A DNA stretch of 64,000 bases from Leptolyngbya sp. NIES-2104. Its GTDB lineage: Bacteria; Cyanobacteriota; Cyanobacteriia; Leptolyngbyales; Leptolyngbyaceae. Position 1 is the stretch's first letter, and each line of letters opens with the position of its first letter. The DNA lies in contig NZ_BBWW01000001.1 in NCBI RefSeq assembly GCF_001485215.1, forward strand, positions 4,030,001 to 4,094,000. The letters are read 5' to 3'. The translations under genes and the position numbers were made by a program. Under the pieces are notes generated by a model. It did no database searches. It was not told the DNA's origin and saw only the letters and a program-made list of their open reading frames with translations. Positions 32,895 through 43,788 of the stretch are shown in pieces.

Positions 32895-33644
32895 CTAGAG
32901 ATTTGGCAGATCGTCGATCGATAAAACTCGTCCGGATCGATACCGTTTTACTTCGTCTCCGAATCGAATTAGTAGCTGTCCTTCGTCGTCGATTCCGGCT
33001 CCTTTTCCGGTGCACTGCTTTCCCCCAGACTCGAAGACAATTGAGCGATCGAGGAGCAAATCTCGCGATCGAATTTCTGGCAGCAATGTTGAGAAAGCGC
33101 GATCGCAAAAGTTCATTAAATTAGTCCGAAGTTGCGCTAATAATTTTTCGCGATCGGGAACGTCGGCGGAAATGTCCTGTAGGCTAATCGCGTTCTGAAC
33201 GAATTCAGGTACCGTTTCGCAGTTCAGACCGATTCCAACCACAACTTGGGCTTGATCGGCTCGAATTCGAGATTCACACAAAATTCCCGAAAGTTTTCGA
33301 CCCGCTGCAAAAACGTCGTTTGTCCACTTGAGGCGAAGTGCGCCCTGCTGATCGGGGAGTAAAGTTTCGATCGCATGAATCACGGCAAGACCAGCAATTA
33401 GACTAAAACCGGGCAACTGAGAGATTGATAGTTCTAGGACAAAACTGGCAGTCAGAACACCGGAAGAAGAGATCCAACTGCGATCGAACTGTCCGCGTCC
33501 TGCGGTTTGATTGTGAGTAAAAATCGTGTCTCCGTGATGTAACTCAGAAAGGTGCTCTAATGCCCAAGTATTTGTGCTTTCGCAGCTTTCTAAATTGATC
33601 AGCCAGGGTTGCATTGTTTGTTCAAGTAAACGCGAATTGATCAT
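32895..33644 (-). CDS. birA: Biotin--[acetyl-CoA-carboxylase] ligase
   Basis: About 249 aa, without the N-terminal DNA-binding domain (a class I ligase). Core motifs: ESTNTWALEHL, TAGRGQFDRSWIS (the GRGRxGR-type biotinyl-AMP loop), LRLKWTNDVFAAGRKLSGIL with the catalytic KWPND-like KWTND, and VVGIGLNC. Attaches biotin to the acetyl-CoA carboxylase carrier protein. ATG 33644 is chosen because it overlaps the upstream stop as ATGA; ATG 33614 is the alternative. It is therefore coupled to the cyanoexosortase operon, an odd partner for a housekeeping gene. Confidence 0.93.
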   Translation of the reverse strand: MINSRLLEQTMQPWLINLESCESTNTWALEHLSELHHGDTIFTHNQTAGRGQFDRSWISSSGVLTASFVLELSISQLPGFSLIAGLAVIHAIETLLPDQQGALRLKWTNDVFAAGRKLSGILCESRIRADQAQVVVGIGLNCETVPEFVQNAISLQDISADVPDREKLLAQLRTNLMNFCDRAFSTLLPEIRSRDLLLDRSIVFESGGKQCTGKGAGIDDEGQLLIRFGDEVKRYRSGRVLSIDDLPNL

Positions 33645-34258
33645 ACTCTGAAGCGATCGCGTAATTTTGGGTAGAGCGTGAACCAGGTTTTTTCTAACAA
33701 TTCTCGATCGCGATTGGTTGTTGACAACTGCACCCACAAGCAGCGTTCATCTCTCAAATTGGTAGAGCTAAATAACCATAAAGCAATGCGATCGGGTCGA
33801 ATATCGTACAGATTCCGATTGCGAGCAAACTGAACTCCAGTAAACGTACTTTCGCCTTTTGGATTGATACAGGTACTAAGATAAGTGCGATTCTGATGGG
33901 TAAACAATCCGTAGAAGCCGTTTTTTTGCTGAATAATCGGCTGTGTTGGCACGATCGACTGATAAACCTGGAAATAATCCCGCACATCGCCATCGGTATT
34001 GATGATATGACGAATTTCGATATCGATCGTCGTTTGCTTCTGTTGATATTGATAAGTTCTACCACTTTGAAACGTCCTTTGATTGTCGTTGATCGGGCTG
34101 CTAGATTTTAATGACCAGTCCGGTAGATCCAGAGTTTGCGGGACTTCAAAGGTGGCTTGAATCGGCTTGTTTGGGTAGAAATGCGCTTTGATTAACACTG
34201 CGATCGTTCCCGCAGTCAGCACACAGATGTAGATGAACTTAAAGCGATCGTGCTTCAT
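33641..34258 (-). CDS. Cyanoexosortase A system-associated protein
   Basis: 205 aa with one N-terminal membrane anchor (FIYICVLTAGTIAVLIKA) and an extracytoplasmic domain starting at LDLPDWSLKSSSPI. The family is found next to cyanoexosortase A in cyanobacteria, and its counterpart EpsI/exosortase-C-associated proteins belong to the same type of locus. Later segments such as YLSTCINPKGESTFTGVQF and RCLWVQLSTT fit. Its start overlaps the exosortase gene by 20 bp and its stop overlaps birA by 4 bp. Presumed accessory factor for processing or exopolysaccharide. Confidence 0.88.
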   Translation of the reverse strand: MKHDRFKFIYICVLTAGTIAVLIKAHFYPNKPIQATFEVPQTLDLPDWSLKSSSPINDNQRTFQSGRTYQYQQKQTTIDIEIRHIINTDGDVRDYFQVYQSIVPTQPIIQQKNGFYGLFTHQNRTYLSTCINPKGESTFTGVQFARNRNLYDIRPDRIALWLFSSTNLRDERCLWVQLSTTNRDRELLEKTWFTLYPKLRDRFRV

Positions 34259-35036
34259 GAGGAAGTAAAACCTGTGAGGATAAACAGAAGATCACAACTG
34301 CGATCGTTGAAAACACAAGAGAACCATTGCCCACATGCCAATACTCGAAAGCAGCTTGATCGCCGAGTGCAACGAGCACTGCCATCAGAGCAACTCGAAA
34401 GGCATTCACTAAAAATGCGATTAATAACGCAAATCCGGGAATGAGAAATTTCTGATAGTGCTTTGTAGGCTGAAGGAAGAGATACATCAGCGCAACCCCG
34501 AAAAGCTGTAGCATTGTGGCAACTCCAGCACAAGCGGAATAAACCTCGATCGAGCCTTTTGGTAAGCTGACTAACACACCCTGAATTGAAACCTGAAACC
34601 CCAAAGCAGATAAGATACAACCTGAAACTTTTGCAGTGATTGATGAAGGATCTAAGAACAACAAAATTAAACCTGGCGGAATCGCGAAAATGCACAGAAT
34701 GAATAGTTCTTGCCAATGTTGTTTTAAGCCGCTAAAGCCTGACCCGATGAGGACTAGAGCCGCGATCGACAAAATCGGAAACACTCTGAGAAAAATATCA
34801 TTTCCAGAAATCGAAGCGCTTTTACTTAACACAGAAATGAGCATTAAACTACCAATACTCATCGAAGCTAAGTTGTTTGAGCATTTAAGCTGAATCTGTT
34901 TTTGACGCAATACGAGAATTGCCGCCGACCAGTATAGAAGACTAGAACCGATTAAGTCTGTGTTTTCGCTTCTCAGGACAAGGCTGAAATGTAACGTAAT
35001 CAAAGCAGAAAGCAAGCTGAGCAGTCCGTATTGCAT
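34239..35036 (-). CDS. crtA: Cyanoexosortase A
   Basis: 265 aa, about eight membrane helices. The transpeptidase-like triad of exosortases is intact: Cys169 in VYSACAGV, Arg214 in VNAFRVALM and His234 in YWHVGNGSLVF. Cleaves the PEP-CTERM sorting signal of surface proteins during transit through the membrane. The gene lies 93 bp downstream of the kinase-VIT-VWA gene, whose product ends with exactly such a signal, and overlaps its own associated-protein gene by 20 bp. Gene symbol follows the name of the family; note that crtA has other meanings in carotenoid literature. Confidence 0.9.
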   Translation of the reverse strand: MQYGLLSLLSALITLHFSLVLRSENTDLIGSSLLYWSAAILVLRQKQIQLKCSNNLASMSIGSLMLISVLSKSASISGNDIFLRVFPILSIAALVLIGSGFSGLKQHWQELFILCIFAIPPGLILLFLDPSSITAKVSGCILSALGFQVSIQGVLVSLPKGSIEVYSACAGVATMLQLFGVALMYLFLQPTKHYQKFLIPGFALLIAFLVNAFRVALMAVLVALGDQAAFEYWHVGNGSLVFSTIAVVIFCLSSQVLLPHEARSL

Positions 35037-35129: not shown

Positions 35130-38093
35130 TTAAGGTTTTACCACCTTTGCCCGTCGCCGTCCAAATCGCCACCACAGAAGCGCGATCGCAACCAGACTTC
35201 CCGCAATTTCCGCAGGCTCAGGAACTTCCTCGGTTTGAGTTCCATTGTTCGGCTGCATATTTGGGGGAAGCTCAACCGGAACATTAACTTTCTGACCTGA
35301 ATTTGGTTCGACCCGCTGATTTTGGCTGATGGCAACAAAGGAGGTATACTTCGACATCAAGCGATAATCAAGTGCAGTTTCAGTAATCGCTTTCACACCT
35401 GCATCCGTTTCTTTCGCAAACATTTGATTGGATAGTTCTTTGATGCGCGATCGACCCCATAATTGAGCAATCCCACCCGATAATGAGTTCGTAGAGTTCT
35501 GAGCAAAATCGACGGGAACCCGTTTCTCGAATCGTGCGCCGCCTGCCGCTGTTCCGGTAATTTTGAGAGTGCCATCTATACGATCGCGCTTTTTACCAAA
35601 CAATACGATCGGCTGATTTGCGAACAAGTCAGGAATCTTTTGCGGATACATTTCTGGAGCTTCCCCGGTTCCTTCCCAGGTCACTTCAATGTTTGTTAAT
35701 ACCGGATTGTTGATTTGCTGGAAGAATTGTTCGACCACTTTATCAGAGGGTTTTCCTGGAATCACAATCTGAGAATTTCCGCGACCGAGTTCAGCCACTC
35801 GATCGATTAAAAATCGATTCACCGAGAAACCCACTCCGAAACTATACAAGCGATTTCCAGGCTTGAGATTTTTCTGCACTTCAGCAATGACGCGCTCATC
35901 ATCCCCGACTAATCCATCGGTTAGCAAAACAACACTGCGTAATCGCCCTTCTGGAGTCGGGGGAAACTTCAGGACTTCTTGAATGCCGTTAAATAGTTCA
36001 GAGCCGCCGTTTGCATCGATGTTGTTGATATAGTCGATCGCTCGTTTTCGATTCTCTGGAGTGTTCGCCAGAGGCTTAGCTGAAAGCTTCTGAGTGGTGC
36101 TTGCAAAATCGATAATTGTGAAGGTGTCATCTGGGTTTAGCCCCTTGATAAACCGTCGCATTAACTCTTTAGAAGCTTGGATCGGTTCACCGGATTGTGA
36201 GCCAGAAGTATCAATCAGGAAAACAATATCTTTCGGAACAATCTCGCTCTGCTGATAGTTCACCGCAGGAATTAGATACGTTGCAAAATGCCCGCCCCGC
36301 TGATCAACATCGGTTAGAGTTGTAGACTGTGCTTTGGTATCTGAAACCTGATACTGCAACACGAAATCTTTGTTCGGAATAGTATCCTCGTTCTTCAGTT
36401 GAATTCTTGTCGATCGACCTTCTTGCTGTGATTGAATTTGATGCGTTGTGGATTGGAGTCCTTTGATTGGCACACCTGCATCGATCTCGATCGTCATTCC
36501 GATATTTTGTCCGGGTCGCGCTGCTGGAGCGGATTTTGCCGGATTTTTCACCCCATTCATTGGATTGTATCGAGGCGCGACTACCATCGGAAACGCAAAC
36601 TCATAGCTACCTTTTTCAAACTTCAGATTTTCGGTATAGCGAATTTTAACATCAATTTTTTCGCCAGGTTTGATGTTAGCAAGTGATTGAGTAAACACAT
36701 TGTCGCGCTCTTGTTCTAACAGTCCTGCGGTTTTCCCTTCCTGCTTTGCGGCTTCAAATAGCTGCTTTGCTTCTTGACGCTTCTTGATCAAGCCGCGAAT
36801 AATGCGATCGCCCACTCGAATTTCCATATCATCGACTGCGGCTTCATCGGGCAGTGGGAACATATACACCGCTTCTAACGGGGTCTTAAAGGGATTCGTA
36901 AATGTTTGCGTAACTTCCACACGCGACACGTTACCCGTAACTCGCGCCATGACTTCCGTATGTTGCAATGGAAAGGATTGCTTCTCTCCGCTTTTGGTGC
37001 TGTATAACCCTGCGATCGTTGATTCTGATGCTGTTGGTGTGATGATATCCGGCGAAACTCTCTGAACGACCGGGGCGACGAATGTTCTTAAACCTCCGAA
37101 AGCTGCGATCGCAATCACTCCGGTAATACCAGCAACCACATAGCGTTTTTTGAATCGTCGGGGCTTCGATTTCAGGTCTTTTAGAACACTCTCAGCATTG
37201 GTGTATCGTTTGGTTGTTCCACTTTCTAGCAACTTATCGAGAATTGTTGCAAGCCAGGAACTAACAACGGTTTTGCGCTTCGGTTTGATGAATCCATCGC
37301 GAGTGGTTTCTTTGTTTAGATAGTGTCGCCACACCCACTTATTCTCACCGCTATCGAACAATTCAAAGGGCGGCATCTGAGTGAGTAAATGAATGCAAGT
37401 TACACCTAAGCTATAGAGATCACTTGCATAAATCGCTTTTCCTCGAACTTGTTCGGGTGCAGTGTACGCCGCAGAACCGATCATTGTTCCAGTTTTGCCT
37501 AAAGTTGTCTCAGTCGTGTACTTTGCTGCACCAAAATCAACGAGAACGAATCTGCGATCGCTCATTCTCCGCACAATGTTCTCAGGCTTGATATCCCGAT
37601 GAATCACTTGATGATCATGGACAAACTTGAGAATCGGTAAAATGTCCTGCAACAACTGTCGAATCTGAGTTTCGTTGAATGCTCCGACTTCTGCGAGTTC
37701 TTGCGCTAAGTTGCGACCATCTACAAATTCTTGAACTAAATACTGATTGCCTTCAACCTCGAAATAGTCCAGTAACTTTGGAATTTGTGAATGCTGTCCC
37801 AATGTTTCCAATCGCTGCGCTTCGAGTCGAAAGAGTTCAGCCGCTTTTTCAGAATTTCCCTGGGACTGTGGAAAGAACTGCTTAATCACACAGCGAGAAT
37901 TTTCCGCTTCATCGGTTACAAGCAGTGTTCGCCCAAATCCGCCTTGACCGATTAAGCGAATGGCGCGATATCGATCGAGTAACAATAACGGTGTTCCACA
38001 ATTCTTGCATTGAGTTGCATTGAGTGGATTTTCAGGCTGCTGACAGGTGGGATTAAAACAATGTGCGGTGTAGGTTGAACGGGTGGCTTGCAT
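35130..38093 (-). CDS. Ser/Thr kinase - VIT - VWA protein with PEP-CTERM tail
   Basis: About 987 aa. Domains in order: zinc ribbon near the N-terminus (HCFNPTCQQ ... CKNCGT); Hanks-type kinase with glycine loop GQGGFGRT, catalytic HRDIKPEN and DFGAAKY; one membrane helix (VVAGITGVIAIAAFGG, about residue 330); VIT domain (VEVTQTFTNPFKTPLEAVYMFPLP); VWA domain with the MIDAS motif DTSGS and LTDGLVGDDE; and finally VPEPAEIAGSLVAIALLWW followed by GRRRAK, a PEP-CTERM sorting signal. Kinase activity is predicted. The kinase would face the cytosol and the VIT-VWA half the outside, with the tail removed by the adjacent cyanoexosortase. ATG 38093 is preferred to 38129. Role: probable surface sensor; ligand unknown. 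Confidence 0.9.
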   Translation of the reverse strand: MQATRSTYTAHCFNPTCQQPENPLNATQCKNCGTPLLLLDRYRAIRLIGQGGFGRTLLVTDEAENSRCVIKQFFPQSQGNSEKAAELFRLEAQRLETLGQHSQIPKLLDYFEVEGNQYLVQEFVDGRNLAQELAEVGAFNETQIRQLLQDILPILKFVHDHQVIHRDIKPENIVRRMSDRRFVLVDFGAAKYTTETTLGKTGTMIGSAAYTAPEQVRGKAIYASDLYSLGVTCIHLLTQMPPFELFDSGENKWVWRHYLNKETTRDGFIKPKRKTVVSSWLATILDKLLESGTTKRYTNAESVLKDLKSKPRRFKKRYVVAGITGVIAIAAFGGLRTFVAPVVQRVSPDIITPTASESTIAGLYSTKSGEKQSFPLQHTEVMARVTGNVSRVEVTQTFTNPFKTPLEAVYMFPLPDEAAVDDMEIRVGDRIIRGLIKKRQEAKQLFEAAKQEGKTAGLLEQERDNVFTQSLANIKPGEKIDVKIRYTENLKFEKGSYEFAFPMVVAPRYNPMNGVKNPAKSAPAARPGQNIGMTIEIDAGVPIKGLQSTTHQIQSQQEGRSTRIQLKNEDTIPNKDFVLQYQVSDTKAQSTTLTDVDQRGGHFATYLIPAVNYQQSEIVPKDIVFLIDTSGSQSGEPIQASKELMRRFIKGLNPDDTFTIIDFASTTQKLSAKPLANTPENRKRAIDYINNIDANGGSELFNGIQEVLKFPPTPEGRLRSVVLLTDGLVGDDERVIAEVQKNLKPGNRLYSFGVGFSVNRFLIDRVAELGRGNSQIVIPGKPSDKVVEQFFQQINNPVLTNIEVTWEGTGEAPEMYPQKIPDLFANQPIVLFGKKRDRIDGTLKITGTAAGGARFEKRVPVDFAQNSTNSLSGGIAQLWGRSRIKELSNQMFAKETDAGVKAITETALDYRLMSKYTSFVAISQNQRVEPNSGQKVNVPVELPPNMQPNNGTQTEEVPEPAEIAGSLVAIALLWWRFGRRRAKVVKP

Positions 38094-38176
38094 AGTCGAG
38101 GAGAGAAACGACAATTGCGGACTACACACACCTTATTCAATGTCCAATGGTCGCGCAATACAGCGATTTCAAGAAT

Positions 38177-38280: not shown

Positions 38281-39531
38281 ATGATGGATGTGGAGAGTGC
38301 GATCGCGCTTGCGGATGAGTTGATTCTCAAATCGAGTGGAAAATCGATGAATGACCTTCAGCGTATCGTGTTTCGGGGGGCGTGGCAGGGAAAAAGTTTT
38401 ACTGAGATTCATCAAGATTGCCGCGATCGCTGTGGACTCGATCATTTGATGCGAAATGTGGGTCCTGAATTGTGGAAATTGCTCTCAGAAGCGACAGGAA
38501 AGAAAGTAACGAAGAATCACCTTCAAGGGGCATTCTCGAAGCTCAGAAGCGAATCTGTAAGCGATCAAGTTTATATCGATCGATTTCCGGTTGAACAAGA
38601 TTGTTACGCTGAAATTCTCAGACCTGGAGCATTGATCCGAATCCGAGCCGCCCAAGACATGGGAAAAACTTGGCTGATGGAACAAGTTTTAAGCCATGCT
38701 CGGCAGAATAGCTATCGCACTCAAGTCTTTAACTTTGAACTTTGCGATAGTACAGTTCTGACCGATTTGAATAAATTTTCTCAATGGTTTTGTGCAAGTA
38801 TTGCTCACGCTGTTGGTTTACCGAACCGTTTAGCTGATTATTGGGTAGACATCTTCGGATGTAACTATAACAGCACCTTGTATTTTGAGAATTATCTACT
38901 TCAGCAAATCGAAACTCCGTTTGTTCTGGCACTGGATAAAGTTGATATTGTGTTTGAACATAGTGCGATCGCGACTGATTTCTGTGCTCTACTCAGAGGC
39001 TGGAATCAACGCGCAATGCAGGGAGACGAGACTGGCGCAATTTGGAAAAAACTGCGATTAATCATTGTTCATTCCACCGAAGTTTATGGCAATTTAGATA
39101 TCAATCATTCACCGATCGGGGGGGTTGGCTTGATTGTGAAATTACCAGAATTTAACCGCGACCAAGTTCAGGAATTGTTGAACCGCTATCAACTCGATTG
39201 GAATGTCGATCGCTTAATGAATCTGGTCGGTGGTCATCCTTACTTAATCCAACAGGCAATCAAACAAAAGCTACCCTTTGATGAATTGCTACAGTCTGCT
39301 CCTACCGAATCGGGAATTTATAGTGATCATCTGCGGAGACATTGGACACAATTACAGCAGAGGATGGATATTGCGATCGCGTTCAAGCAAGTGATTTGCT
39401 CTAGTAAGCCTGTTGCGCTCGATCCGTTCCAAGCCTTTAAGCTCGAAAGTATGGGATTAGTTCATTTACAGGGAAATGCAGCGATTCCGCGATGTGAATT
39501 GTATCGGTTGTATTTTGTCGATCGACTTTAA
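38281..39531 (+). CDS. HTH-VMAP / AAA-like domain ATPase (AAA_35)
   Basis: 416 aa (two adjacent ATGs). The N-terminal about 85 residues match the HTH domain of vWA-MoxR-associated proteins: MNDLQRIVFRGAWQGKSF, then LWKLLSEATGKKVTKN. The rest is an AAA-like (AAA_35) P-loop ATPase with a degenerate Walker A, RIRAAQDMGKTW, Walker B-like FVLALDKVD, and LVGGHPYLIQ near the end. Such HTH-AAA_35 proteins abound in cyanobacteria and belong to signalling/conflict-type NTPase systems. Divergent from the kinase-VWA gene; ends in a TTAA joint stop with the oxygenase gene. Confidence 0.83.
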   Translation: MMDVESAIALADELILKSSGKSMNDLQRIVFRGAWQGKSFTEIHQDCRDRCGLDHLMRNVGPELWKLLSEATGKKVTKNHLQGAFSKLRSESVSDQVYIDRFPVEQDCYAEILRPGALIRIRAAQDMGKTWLMEQVLSHARQNSYRTQVFNFELCDSTVLTDLNKFSQWFCASIAHAVGLPNRLADYWVDIFGCNYNSTLYFENYLLQQIETPFVLALDKVDIVFEHSAIATDFCALLRGWNQRAMQGDETGAIWKKLRLIIVHSTEVYGNLDINHSPIGGVGLIVKLPEFNRDQVQELLNRYQLDWNVDRLMNLVGGHPYLIQQAIKQKLPFDELLQSAPTESGIYSDHLRRHWTQLQQRMDIAIAFKQVICSSKPVALDPFQAFKLESMGLVHLQGNAAIPRCELYRLYFVDRL

Positions 39532-40305: not shown

Positions 40306-43300
40306 ATGAGCCACCTTTATCAAGTCGGCGGCAATTTACCGATCGATGCTCCCACTTATGTCAAAAGAAACGCCGATCGTACGCTTTACGAGCATCTCAG
40401 AAACGGCGATTTCTGCTATGTACTCAATTCCCGCCAAATGGGAAAATCGAGCTTGCGAGTTCAAACGATGCACAGGTTACAGAGCGAAAATATTGCTTGT
40501 GCAGTGATTGATTTGACAACGATCGGCATCGAGCAAATTAGCTCAGAACAATGGTATGCCAGTTTGATCGGCAGTTTAGCGAATCGATTCAAACTAGAAT
40601 TTAATTTAGTGAACTGGTGGAAAGATCGACAAATTCTAACTCCTGTTCAACGCTGGAGCAGCTTTCTAGAAGAGATTTTGCTAAAGCAAATCAATCAGCA
40701 AATTGTTATTTTCATTGATGAAATTGATAGTGTTCTCAGTCTTCCTTTTCCGGTTGAAGATTTTTTTGCCTCGATTCGCGCTTGTTACAACCAACGAGTT
40801 GAGAATGCAGATTACGATCGATTAACCTTCGCGCTGTTAGGAGTCGCCTCGCCTTCTCATTTAATGCAGGATAAACAGCGAACTCCGTTTAACATTGGTT
40901 ATGCGATCGAGCTTTCCGGCTTTCAATTACACGAAGTTGATGTTCTCGCTCAAGGTTTACCCGTTGCTAATCCAGCGATAGTGATCAAAGAAATCTTGTA
41001 TTGGACGGGCGGACAGCCTTTTTTGACTCAGAAGCTTTGTCGATTGGTTGAGCAAACAGGTGATGATATTGAAAGAATTGTGCGATCGCGCATCCTAGAG
41101 CAATGGGAATTTCAAGATGAACCAACGCATTTAAAAACGATTCGCGATCGCCTACTCAATAAACGCACTGGAAGACTACTCGGACTTTACCAAAAGGCAC
41201 TCACACATACACTCAAAATAGACGGTAGCCTTGATCAAATTGAACTGAGACTATCTGGATTAGTCGTGGAACGTCAGGGCTATCTCGCCGTTTATAATTC
41301 GATTTATGCGGCAGTATTCAACCTTGAATGGACTGAGCAAATTTTAGCGAGTATTTGCCCCTATTCTGATGCGCTGAATGCTTGGATGGCATCAGGGCAA
41401 GACGAATCTTGGTTGTTGAGAAAACAGGCATTACAAGAGGCTCTGGCTTGGGCAACTGGGAAAAGTTTAAGCGATCGAGATTATTGGTTCCTTGATGCCA
41501 GCCGCGAACTTGAAACCCGCGAAGTTCAAAGCGCTCTGGAAGCTGAACAAAAAGCCAATCAAATTCTGACTGAGGCACGACAAGAAGCGGAAGCCGAAGA
41601 GCGAAAAGCCAATCAGCGACTGGCAAAAACTCAATGGAAAGCGCGTTGGGTATCGCGAATCGGGTTTGGCATGTTAGCGCTGATATCGATCGCTGCGATT
41701 ACCGTTAGCCTCGAAGCTCGAAATATTCTCCGCAATGCTGAAATTGCTCGAAGGTCGGTTGAAATTGAGAGTTTTAATGCTGCGGCACAACTGCGATCGC
41801 TCAAAAACGATCAGCTAAATGGACTTCTCGAAAGTGTTAAAGCTGTTCAAAGCTTTTCAAACCTACCACCCGATGCACAGTCTAAATTACTTTTGGAAAC
41901 TAGCAATACATTACAGCAATCGATCTATAGCATTCACGAATGGAATCGCTTACAAGAACATCAAGATAAAGTGAATGGCGTTGCTTTTAGTCGAGATGGA
42001 AAACGAATTGCAACTGCAAGCGATGATACCACTGTGAAGCTTTGGACGGTTGAAGGGGAATTGCTCAAAACACTGTCATGTGAGCAGGATAAGCGCTGTA
42101 GTGCATTTACTAGCGTTGCGTTCACGGAAGACGATCGCTTATTAGCCACAAGCCAAAACGGTAAGATTTACGTCTGGAATCAAGCAGGCGAACTGATTAA
42201 AACACTATCAGGACATACTCAGGGAATTGAAAACGTCACAGTTGGGAAGAGTGCAATTGCATCCGCAAGCTGGGATAATACGATTCGACTTTGGAACTTG
42301 AACGGCGATCCAATTAAAACTCCTTCTCTCAGGCATAAAGGAGCCGTTTACACGGTTAGCTTTAGCCCGAATGGACAATCATTTGCTTCGGCAGGTGAAC
42401 ATGGAGATATCAAGCTTTGGACAGTCCAAGGTAAATTACTGAAACAATGGAAAGCCCATGATACTCAAATTAATAGCTTAAGCTTCTCCGGTGAACTATT
42501 AGCTTCAGCAAGTGGTGATGGTTCTGTAAAGCTTTGGAAAGATGGAACTTTAATTAGAACCTTGAGTAGTCGAAATGGACAGGTTTACAGTGTGAGTTTC
42601 AGCCCGGATGGACAAACGATCGCATCTGCACACCAAGACGGAACGATTAAACAATGGCGTGTATCTGATGGGCGCGAAATCAATGTTTTTACAGGTCATA
42701 AAGGTGCGGTTTACAGTGTGAGTTTTAGCCCGGATGGTAAAGTTTTAGCATCATCGAGCTATGACAATACTGTAAAGCTTTGGAAATTGGAGAATCCACT
42801 GCGCCGAGTCTTGCGGGGACATACTGCTGAGGTGAACAGTATTCGGTTTAGTCCGAATGGTCAACGGCTTGTAAGTGCAAGTCAGGATGGAAGTATTAAA
42901 CTTTGGGATGTGAACGGACGATTTTTAAGCACGATCGCTTCTCATCCCAACTGGTTTCAAAGCGCAGTCTTTAGCCCAAATGGTTCGATGATTGCAACAG
43001 CCAGCCGCGATCGCACAATCAAACTTTGGAAACCTGACGGAACTTTGCTAAAAACGCTGTCAGGTCACACCGGGCGCGTCTACAATATTGCCTTTAGCCC
43101 CGATGGTCAAACTGTATTATCCGCAAGCTATGATTCTTCAATTCGACTTTGGAACCTTCAAGGAACAGTGTTAACAACACTTCGGGGACATAGCGGCAGG
43201 ATCTACAGTGCAGAATTTAGCCCGGATGGAAATACGATCGTGTCCGCAGGCGGCGATGAAACGGTGCGATTGTGGGATCGACAAGGTAAGCACCTCCAGC

Positions 43301-43788
43301 AAATGAATGCTCATAGTGGCAGAGTGTATAATGCGGAAATTAGTCCAGATAGTCAGGTCATTGTTTCCGGTGGAAATGATGGAGTGCTGAGGTTTTGGAA
43401 TTTTCAGGGAAAAGAAGCGATCGCAGCAAAAAGCGATGGTGGATCAATCTACAGCATTGCGATTAGCTCGGATAGTCAAACGATCGCATCCGGGCATCAA
43501 GATGGAACGATTCGACTCTGGGATCGAAAAGGTAATTTACTTAGAACTTTAAGAGGACATACCGGAATTGTTGAAGGACTAAGCTTTAGTCCGAATTCTG
43601 ATCAATTCTTAGCTTCTGCAAGTCGAGATAAGACGATTATTTTATGGCAATGGCGATCGAGTCTTGATCAACTTCTCACCCAAAGCTGTGATTGGCTTCA
43701 GAACTATTTGAAAAACAATTCGACTGTGAAAGAGCGCGATCGAACAGTCTGCCAAAACTCCGGAGAACCATTACCTCGATCGTACTAA
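40306..43788 (+). CDS. AAA-like ATPase - coiled coil - TM - 14x WD40 protein
   Basis: 1160 aa. Residues about 1-330 are an AAA_35-type ATPase (GDFCYVLNSRQMGKSSL as Walker A; IVIFIDEIDSV as Walker B), starting with YQVGGNLPIDAPTYVKR typical of the cyanobacterial family. A charged helix around 410-440 precedes one membrane helix (IGFGMLALISIAAITVSL). From about 545 to 1125 come 14 WD40 repeats (each ending in xxIKLW/RLW), which equals two seven-bladed propellers. Likely a membrane-anchored signalling or assembly platform. Overlaps the convergent TPR gene by 18 bp. Confidence 0.9.
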   Translation: MSHLYQVGGNLPIDAPTYVKRNADRTLYEHLRNGDFCYVLNSRQMGKSSLRVQTMHRLQSENIACAVIDLTTIGIEQISSEQWYASLIGSLANRFKLEFNLVNWWKDRQILTPVQRWSSFLEEILLKQINQQIVIFIDEIDSVLSLPFPVEDFFASIRACYNQRVENADYDRLTFALLGVASPSHLMQDKQRTPFNIGYAIELSGFQLHEVDVLAQGLPVANPAIVIKEILYWTGGQPFLTQKLCRLVEQTGDDIERIVRSRILEQWEFQDEPTHLKTIRDRLLNKRTGRLLGLYQKALTHTLKIDGSLDQIELRLSGLVVERQGYLAVYNSIYAAVFNLEWTEQILASICPYSDALNAWMASGQDESWLLRKQALQEALAWATGKSLSDRDYWFLDASRELETREVQSALEAEQKANQILTEARQEAEAEERKANQRLAKTQWKARWVSRIGFGMLALISIAAITVSLEARNILRNAEIARRSVEIESFNAAAQLRSLKNDQLNGLLESVKAVQSFSNLPPDAQSKLLLETSNTLQQSIYSIHEWNRLQEHQDKVNGVAFSRDGKRIATASDDTTVKLWTVEGELLKTLSCEQDKRCSAFTSVAFTEDDRLLATSQNGKIYVWNQAGELIKTLSGHTQGIENVTVGKSAIASASWDNTIRLWNLNGDPIKTPSLRHKGAVYTVSFSPNGQSFASAGEHGDIKLWTVQGKLLKQWKAHDTQINSLSFSGELLASASGDGSVKLWKDGTLIRTLSSRNGQVYSVSFSPDGQTIASAHQDGTIKQWRVSDGREINVFTGHKGAVYSVSFSPDGKVLASSSYDNTVKLWKLENPLRRVLRGHTAEVNSIRFSPNGQRLVSASQDGSIKLWDVNGRFLSTIASHPNWFQSAVFSPNGSMIATASRDRTIKLWKPDGTLLKTLSGHTGRVYNIAFSPDGQTVLSASYDSSIRLWNLQGTVLTTLRGHSGRIYSAEFSPDGNTIVSAGGDETVRLWDRQGKHLQQMNAHSGRVYNAEISPDSQVIVSGGNDGVLRFWNFQGKEAIAAKSDGGSIYSIAISSDSQTIASGHQDGTIRLWDRKGNLLRTLRGHTGIVEGLSFSPNSDQFLASASRDKTIILWQWRSSLDQLLTQSCDWLQNYLKNNSTVKERDRTVCQNSGEPLPRSY

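Follow-up and report, generated by a model that had tools for sequence, protein, structure and literature searches.

A receptor-like kinase with a PEP-CTERM tail and a putatively dedicated branch of cyanoexosortase A in Leptolyngbya sp. NIES-2104 and other cyanobacteria

Here, we have analysed a stretch of 64,000 nucleotides from Leptolyngbya sp. NIES-2104 (NCBI RefSeq assembly GCF_001485215.1, contig NZ_BBWW01000001.1, positions 4,030,001 to 4,094,000 of the forward strand), called the window in the following, which carries a gene for a kinase-VIT-VWA-PEP-CTERM protein, labelled KVV, beside a gene for cyanoexosortase A (CrtA). KVV is probably a receptor kinase of the inner membrane and, at the same time, the dedicated substrate of a CrtA branch that is specific to KVV. 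The computed basis consists of the domains and residues of KVV, their conservation, the adjacency of KVV and CrtA in two gene orders, and a CrtA clade occurring only in KVV genomes; from these we infer topology, cutting, acceptor and signalling. The features concerned, all read on the reverse strand (-), are as follows:

35130..38093 (-): KVV, 987 amino acids from the ATG at 38093, inside the open frame 35130-38129
37986..38063 (-): 4-Cys prefix (zinc ribbon) of KVV, NF045510, 28.0 bits (cut-off 24)
37182..37970 (-): Hanks-type Ser/Thr kinase domain, Pfam PF00069 Pkinase, 149 bits (cut-off 31.7)
37071..37142 (-): predicted internal signal-anchor helix TM1, residues 318-341, from hydropathy, with RRFKKR directly before it
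36636..36968 (-): VIT domain, Pfam PF08487, 129-134 bits (cut-off 26.5)
35769..36230 (-): VWA domain of ITIH1-like fold with the metal ion-dependent adhesion site (MIDAS) D628/S630/S632, Pfam PF13768 VWA_3, 73 bits (cut-off 27)
35133..35225 (-): PEP-CTERM signal with VPEP (957-960), helix and GRRR tail, from TIGR02595 and conservation
34239..35036 (-): CrtA, TIGR03763, 207 bits (cut-off 150)
33641..34258 (-): CrtA-associated protein, TIGR04153, 139 bits (cut-off 100), overlapping the end of CrtA

The ATG at 38093 is most plausibly the start of KVV. A sequence-only reading of this DNA had proposed the order zinc ribbon, Hanks kinase, helix, VIT, VWA with MIDAS and a terminal VPEP-helix-GRRR element, and this order was confirmed by Pfam and NCBIfam scans; its two helices were borne out by hydropathy, which revealed one internal helix only, plus the C-terminal helix of the tail. 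All catalytic residues that mark a Hanks-type kinase are present (Lys at K71, HRD at 165-167, DFG at 186-188), and the VIT domain is the sole VIT match of the whole genome (G000) at E<=0.001. In total, we found 36 full-length KVV in 33 genomes, which rules out an artefact of assembly or start site; together with a copy broken over three frames in G014, a genome of the same family, there are 37 loci in 34 genomes, 22 genera and 11 family groups. Counts on conservation refer to the 36 full-length proteins and counts on loci to all 37. Every full-length protein retains the catalytic Lys, the DFG Asp, the four Cys and the MIDAS DxSxS, and 33 of them retain the HRD Asp, while Lys and Arg flanking TM1 are in excess on the kinase side in 31, with four ties and a single reverse case.

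Whether the C-terminus of the window copy (VPEPAEIAGSLVAIALLWWRFGRRRAKVVKP) matches PEP-CTERM models, a test set beforehand, had a divided outcome. The isolated tail narrowly passes TIGR02595 (PEP_CTERM) at 16.3-16.4 bits (cut-off 16), a scan of the complete protein does not list this model at E<=1, and Pfam PF07589 reported no match to the tail even at E<=10. We accept the signal despite its marginal score because PEP is conserved among the homologues, being present in 33 of the 36 tails, with PEG in one and neither in two. Pro-Glu is retained in 34, PEP is the only segment of the aligned tails that is nearly invariant, and four to seven Lys or Arg follow the last helix in the 34 tails with PEP or PEG. 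The three KVV lacking the HRD Asp (loci L168, L169 and L170) are second copies within one genus and likely represent pseudokinase paralogues. Two of them have also lost the DFG Gly, a VWA Asp and the PEP tail; these are the only KVV that lack a PEP tail and the only ones that lack the DFG Gly as well as the HRD Asp. This is a slight indication, confined to a single lineage, that kinase and PEP tail may be retained together. One of these three second copies has a TAG near its end.

After a gap of 93 bp downstream of KVV follows CrtA, which the sequence-only reading had described with the residues Cys169/Arg214/His234. Both the TIGR03763 match above cut-off and the alignment confirm this: the Cys/Arg/His triad, which together with that model defines a cyanoexosortase A, is intact in the window and invariant in all 110 aligned CrtAs. 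The genome of 6.39 Mb contains five exosortase genes; only two tails in it exceed the Pfam PEP-CTERM cut-off, so targets are few in this genome or are missed by the model, as KVV is. Within the family of the window, CrtA follows KVV on the same strand at 6/6 loci, while at ten further loci from five other family groups it lies beyond the 3' end of KVV on the opposite strand, convergent and at most about 1.1 kb away with one exception at 4.8 kb. At one more locus, situated at a contig end, the CrtA partner alone is visible. CrtA is therefore within reach in two gene orders at 16 of the 37 loci, and at 17 counting the partner, so that the suggestion that KVV always stands beside it did not hold; by a rough estimate from five exosortases, 14 kb and 6.4 Mb, chance would place an exosortase beside KVV at about 0.4 of 37. 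When neighbours were grouped by frame, CrtA (9 of 23 locus groups) and its partner (8 of 23) were the commonest, followed by reverse-strand frames of KVV itself (8 and 7) and a pentapeptide-repeat protein recognised by eye (6). CrtA was absent from all 76 loci, viewed with flanks of up to 8 kb, whose related kinases have no VIT-VWA part, and from all 11 loci of kinase-less VIT-VWA proteins with 4 kb or more of flanking sequence on one side.

Phylogenetic analysis of CrtA points in the same direction. A first tree, built from 79 CrtAs, has a branch with support 100/98 that places the 16 CrtAs adjoining KVV on one side. A larger tree of 110 comprised these 16, 32 non-adjacent CrtAs from KVV genomes and 62 from 59 KVV-less genomes; here, a branch with support 100/89 separates 22 CrtAs, namely all 16 adjacent ones and six non-adjacent ones (G615, G582, G508, G485, G256 and G532), every one from a KVV genome and none of the 62 from KVV-less genomes. 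The CrtA of G582 may also be KVV-adjacent, since it sits at a contig start and the partner gene on the KVV side does likewise. With other exosortases as outgroup, which join among the remaining CrtAs, the clade holds with support 93, or 89 after three more CrtAs of the window's genus were added. Outside it fall the two other CrtAs of the genome under study and the above-cut-off CrtAs of the three KVV-less species of its genus. Altogether 113 CrtAs were placed, a part of those from the 198 genomes with one above cut-off. On these sequences, clade and KVV look like a dedicated pair of exosortase and receptor kinase. Pairwise distances were rejected as proof of the pairing, as they do not discriminate: KVV correlates with clade CrtAs at r 0.87 (0.71 with one per genus) and with the other CrtAs of KVV genomes at r 0.85 (0.62).

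Searches of 42 genomes each in the family and in the order of the window, an even draw across the phylum and a draw from the order of G274 were used to follow the fusion. Full-length KVV occurs in 5/8 genomes of the window's genus and in 3/386 genomes of the even draw. Among 388 genomes from the order of G274, 35 gave a strong match, 28 of them with the fusion and seven with the VIT-VWA part only, and these 28 rule out a curiosity of a single genus. All 28 carry an exosortase match, compared to 338/388 overall (Fisher p 0.036, uncorrected for kinship), and 22 of them a CrtA above cut-off, compared to 176/360 of the others and 198/388 overall (Fisher p 0.003, likewise uncorrected). In named genomes, the KVV alignment found 80 loci, four of which have the VIT-VWA part, the carriers being Microseira wollei NIES-4236, Oscillatoria princeps RMCB-10, a metagenome-assembled genome of the Xenococcaceae and UBA8803. 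In the last, which is outside our counts, KVV is not a single open frame, and CrtA and its partner lie about 2-2.5 kb away. Searching named genomes with CrtA found no relative.

As to how such a pair could work, TM1 would act as a signal anchor, keeping zinc ribbon and kinase in the cytosol while the ITIH-like VIT-VWA part is threaded into the periplasm. Next, the PEP-CTERM helix would insert and anchor the protein a second time, its basic tail remaining on the inner side, and CrtA, helped by the CrtA-associated protein, would cut at the PEP on the periplasmic face via Cys169. What remains would be a membrane-held kinase with an ectodomain whose C-terminus is free or passed to an acceptor, for example an envelope polysaccharide, and the kinase may report the state of this ectodomain, be it ligand, load or successful attachment. 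KVV had been suggested to be cut or anchored after export; since TM1 is no cleaved signal peptide, the cut product should stay in the inner membrane, and its release is not to be expected. More tentatively, and with considerable doubt on our side, a CrtA branch with one client might link the ITIH-like ectodomain covalently to polysaccharide of the envelope, with the kinase held in the membrane by TM1; this would create a direct mechanical or chemical wire between the extracellular matrix and phosphorylation in the cytosol.

Several results weigh against a dedicated pair of enzyme and substrate. The TIGR02595 score of the window tail is barely above cut-off, and this model matches 23 of the 36 tails at E<=1, with a best E of 1.8e-5. 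At 20 of the 37 loci, neither CrtA nor its partner lies in the stretch read, though some of these stretches end at contig ends. The dedicated CrtA clade is absent from 12 of the 34 KVV genomes, three of which (G559, G591 and G605) have only exosortases below the CrtA cut-off, and some KVV-less genomes of the tree are incomplete drafts. The agreement of distances shows little beyond common descent because the other CrtAs correlate nearly as well. In the structure model of KVV (mean predicted local distance difference test, pLDDT, 72; predicted template modelling score, pTM, 0.51), the region from TM1 through to VIT is of low confidence (pLDDT 25-42). Wide occurrence of the fusion without an exosortase nearby, named beforehand as a result that would speak against the pairing, was thus observed in part as far as adjacency is concerned; at the level of genomes, an exosortase is present in 28/28 KVV genomes from the order of G274 and the dedicated CrtA branch in 22/34 of all KVV genomes. 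Finally, a cut at a PEP is not demonstrated in the portions of the exosortase literature considered here. Work on CrtB of Nostoc punctiforme reports that extracellular amounts of PEP-CTERM proteins depend on CrtB and that no peptide spanning the PEP-CTERM domain was detected in either strain (PMC12188702).

These points also bear on other explanations. KVV could regulate the exosortase and be no substrate at all, its uncut PEP tail docking on CrtA and its kinase phosphorylating CrtA, the CrtA partner or the polysaccharide machinery according to envelope load. Linkage and co-inheritance of the pair would suit this, and TM1 would retain a cut product in the membrane anyway; since, however, a motif-helix-basic tail typical of cut signals is kept in 33/36 KVV and the catalytic triad in 110/110 CrtAs, we regard it as unlikely. 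The same tail conservation bears on the idea that the PEP helix serves simply as another anchor, with linkage to CrtA resulting from a common role in building the envelope. Two observations fit it, the lack of both CrtA and partner within reach at 20 of the 37 loci and the low PEP score of the window copy. It is at odds with the retention of Pro-Glu in 34/36, with PEP as the only nearly invariant part of the alignment, and with the dedicated CrtA clade, and we consider it very unlikely.

Alternatively, KVV might be cut twice, by CrtA at the PEP and by another protease after TM1, freeing VIT-VWA to the surface, while a kinase stump would stay behind and report the release through its activity. 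Ordinary PEP-CTERM proteins do occur in the exoproteome (PMC12188702), and among seven sequences the stretch linking TM1 to VIT is variable both in length and in sequence; in those same seven, no conserved cleavage motif was apparent by eye, no cleavage predictor having been used, and we think a second cut improbable. Maturation of a membrane-held receptor kinase by its own CrtA branch is the explanation that we favour.

Compared with known systems, KVV and CrtA share with the PEP-CTERM/exosortase system of cyanoexosortase A (TIGR02595, TIGR03763, TIGR04153) the PEP-helix-basic end, the Cys/Arg/His of CrtA and the associated protein. They differ in that one CrtA branch appears dedicated to a single target and, above all, in that KVV has no N-terminal signal peptide; zinc ribbon and kinase, presumably cytosolic, and an internal anchor precede the part predicted to be exported. 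For PEP-CTERM proteins, Haft et al. estimate that 97% have a signal peptide after re-analysis, and describe helices between both ends for one three-member family only (PMC1569441); KVV deviates from this pattern on both counts.

The VIT-VWA core is common to the marine proteobacterial sortase targets of TIGR03788 (479.8 bits over residues 391-966 of the 999-residue frame), in agreement with the kinship to sortase targets proposed earlier. Membership in this family was rejected, as the score is below the cut-off of 551.65; moreover, the match ends before the PEP-CTERM tail, and KVV has a kinase fused to it. The sortase of these targets is of class GN. KVV had been called the exosortase counterpart of the VIT-sortase pair, which applies insofar as a kinase-helix-VIT-VWA-PEP-CTERM fusion is paired with CrtA. 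A link between VIT and exosortases is already known, however, because NCBIfam names a VIT protein of the XrtN system (TIGR04477), and also includes TIGR02921 (PEP_integral), a family of PEP-CTERM proteins in which a VIT-like match is weak. These two and TIGR04286 (MSEP-CTERM) have an exosortase-type tail, with VIT by name (TIGR04477) or as a weak match, and the window protein belongs to none of them, being unmatched at E<=1. Unlike KVV, TIGR02921 is an integral multi-helix protein without kinase, and TIGR04477 and TIGR04286 presumably are as well. In two genera, KVV has a TIGR02921 gene as its neighbour (L097:4637-7864 by model match, L158:5877-8765 by similarity). What is new here, as far as our searches show, is the fusion of a kinase to an exosortase target and the dedicated CrtA clade, confined in our sample to KVV carriers; no description of the fusion was found in the open-access literature, where absence is weak evidence.

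Kinase-less cyanobacterial VIT-VWA proteins show 51-61% identity to the VIT-VWA part of KVV in 16/17 and 30% in one; 16/17 contain the after-VIT domain (NF033769), none has a kinase in frame, and a PEP motif was found in 0/17. Many of them start with a signal-peptide-like stretch, as judged by eye. In fold comparison, the best match of KVV is a human matrix protein, the inter-alpha-inhibitor heavy chain 1 (ITIH1, 6FPY), covering the whole VIT-hybrid-VWA unit over about 600 columns (E 2.6e-33, template modelling score 0.67 by target), followed by a trypanosome flagellar chain and PknB-type kinases, while a sequence search with the ectodomain finds PARP4, ITIH4 and ITIH1. ITIH heavy chains are joined to polysaccharide via their C-terminus after C-terminal processing. 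ITIH1 is a secreted animal protein without kinase, unlike KVV, and its attachment chemistry differs. An association of ITIH1 with chondroitin sulfate and with hyaluronate is reported (PMC10539598). The likeness of ITIH1 to KVV may serve as a lead for a polysaccharide acceptor, not as evidence.

Further genes were seen near KVV. A divergent AAA_35 protein (window 38281-39531, +) accompanies KVV in the window's genus and, as fragments, also in G014. Further on (window 40306-43788, +) lies a longer protein, recognised by eye as an AAA/WD40-repeat protein; G274, a member of another family, encodes a relative at a distance of 3.5 kb from KVV (L097:663-4424). A membrane protein resembling GT39-type glycosyltransferases, again by eye, is encoded in the vicinity of KVV in four locus groups that have no CrtA alongside, its gene being close to KVV and convergent in L157, L159, L168 and L169. 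The positions are:

L145:15070-16716, GT39-like protein
L157:10713-12347, GT39-like protein
L159:10632-12413, GT39-like protein
L168:10693-12423, GT39-like protein
L169:5092-6780, GT39-like protein

An exosortase usually serves many targets, which is part of what makes it hard to tell whether its targets are only cut or are also joined to an acceptor, and to which one. In the present case, one exosortase branch goes with a single target, and this target brings its own reporter, the kinase activity, and its own tether, which would retain the product, so that cutting, acceptor and consequence can be tested directly. If our reading is true, a sorting enzyme would mature a signalling receptor.
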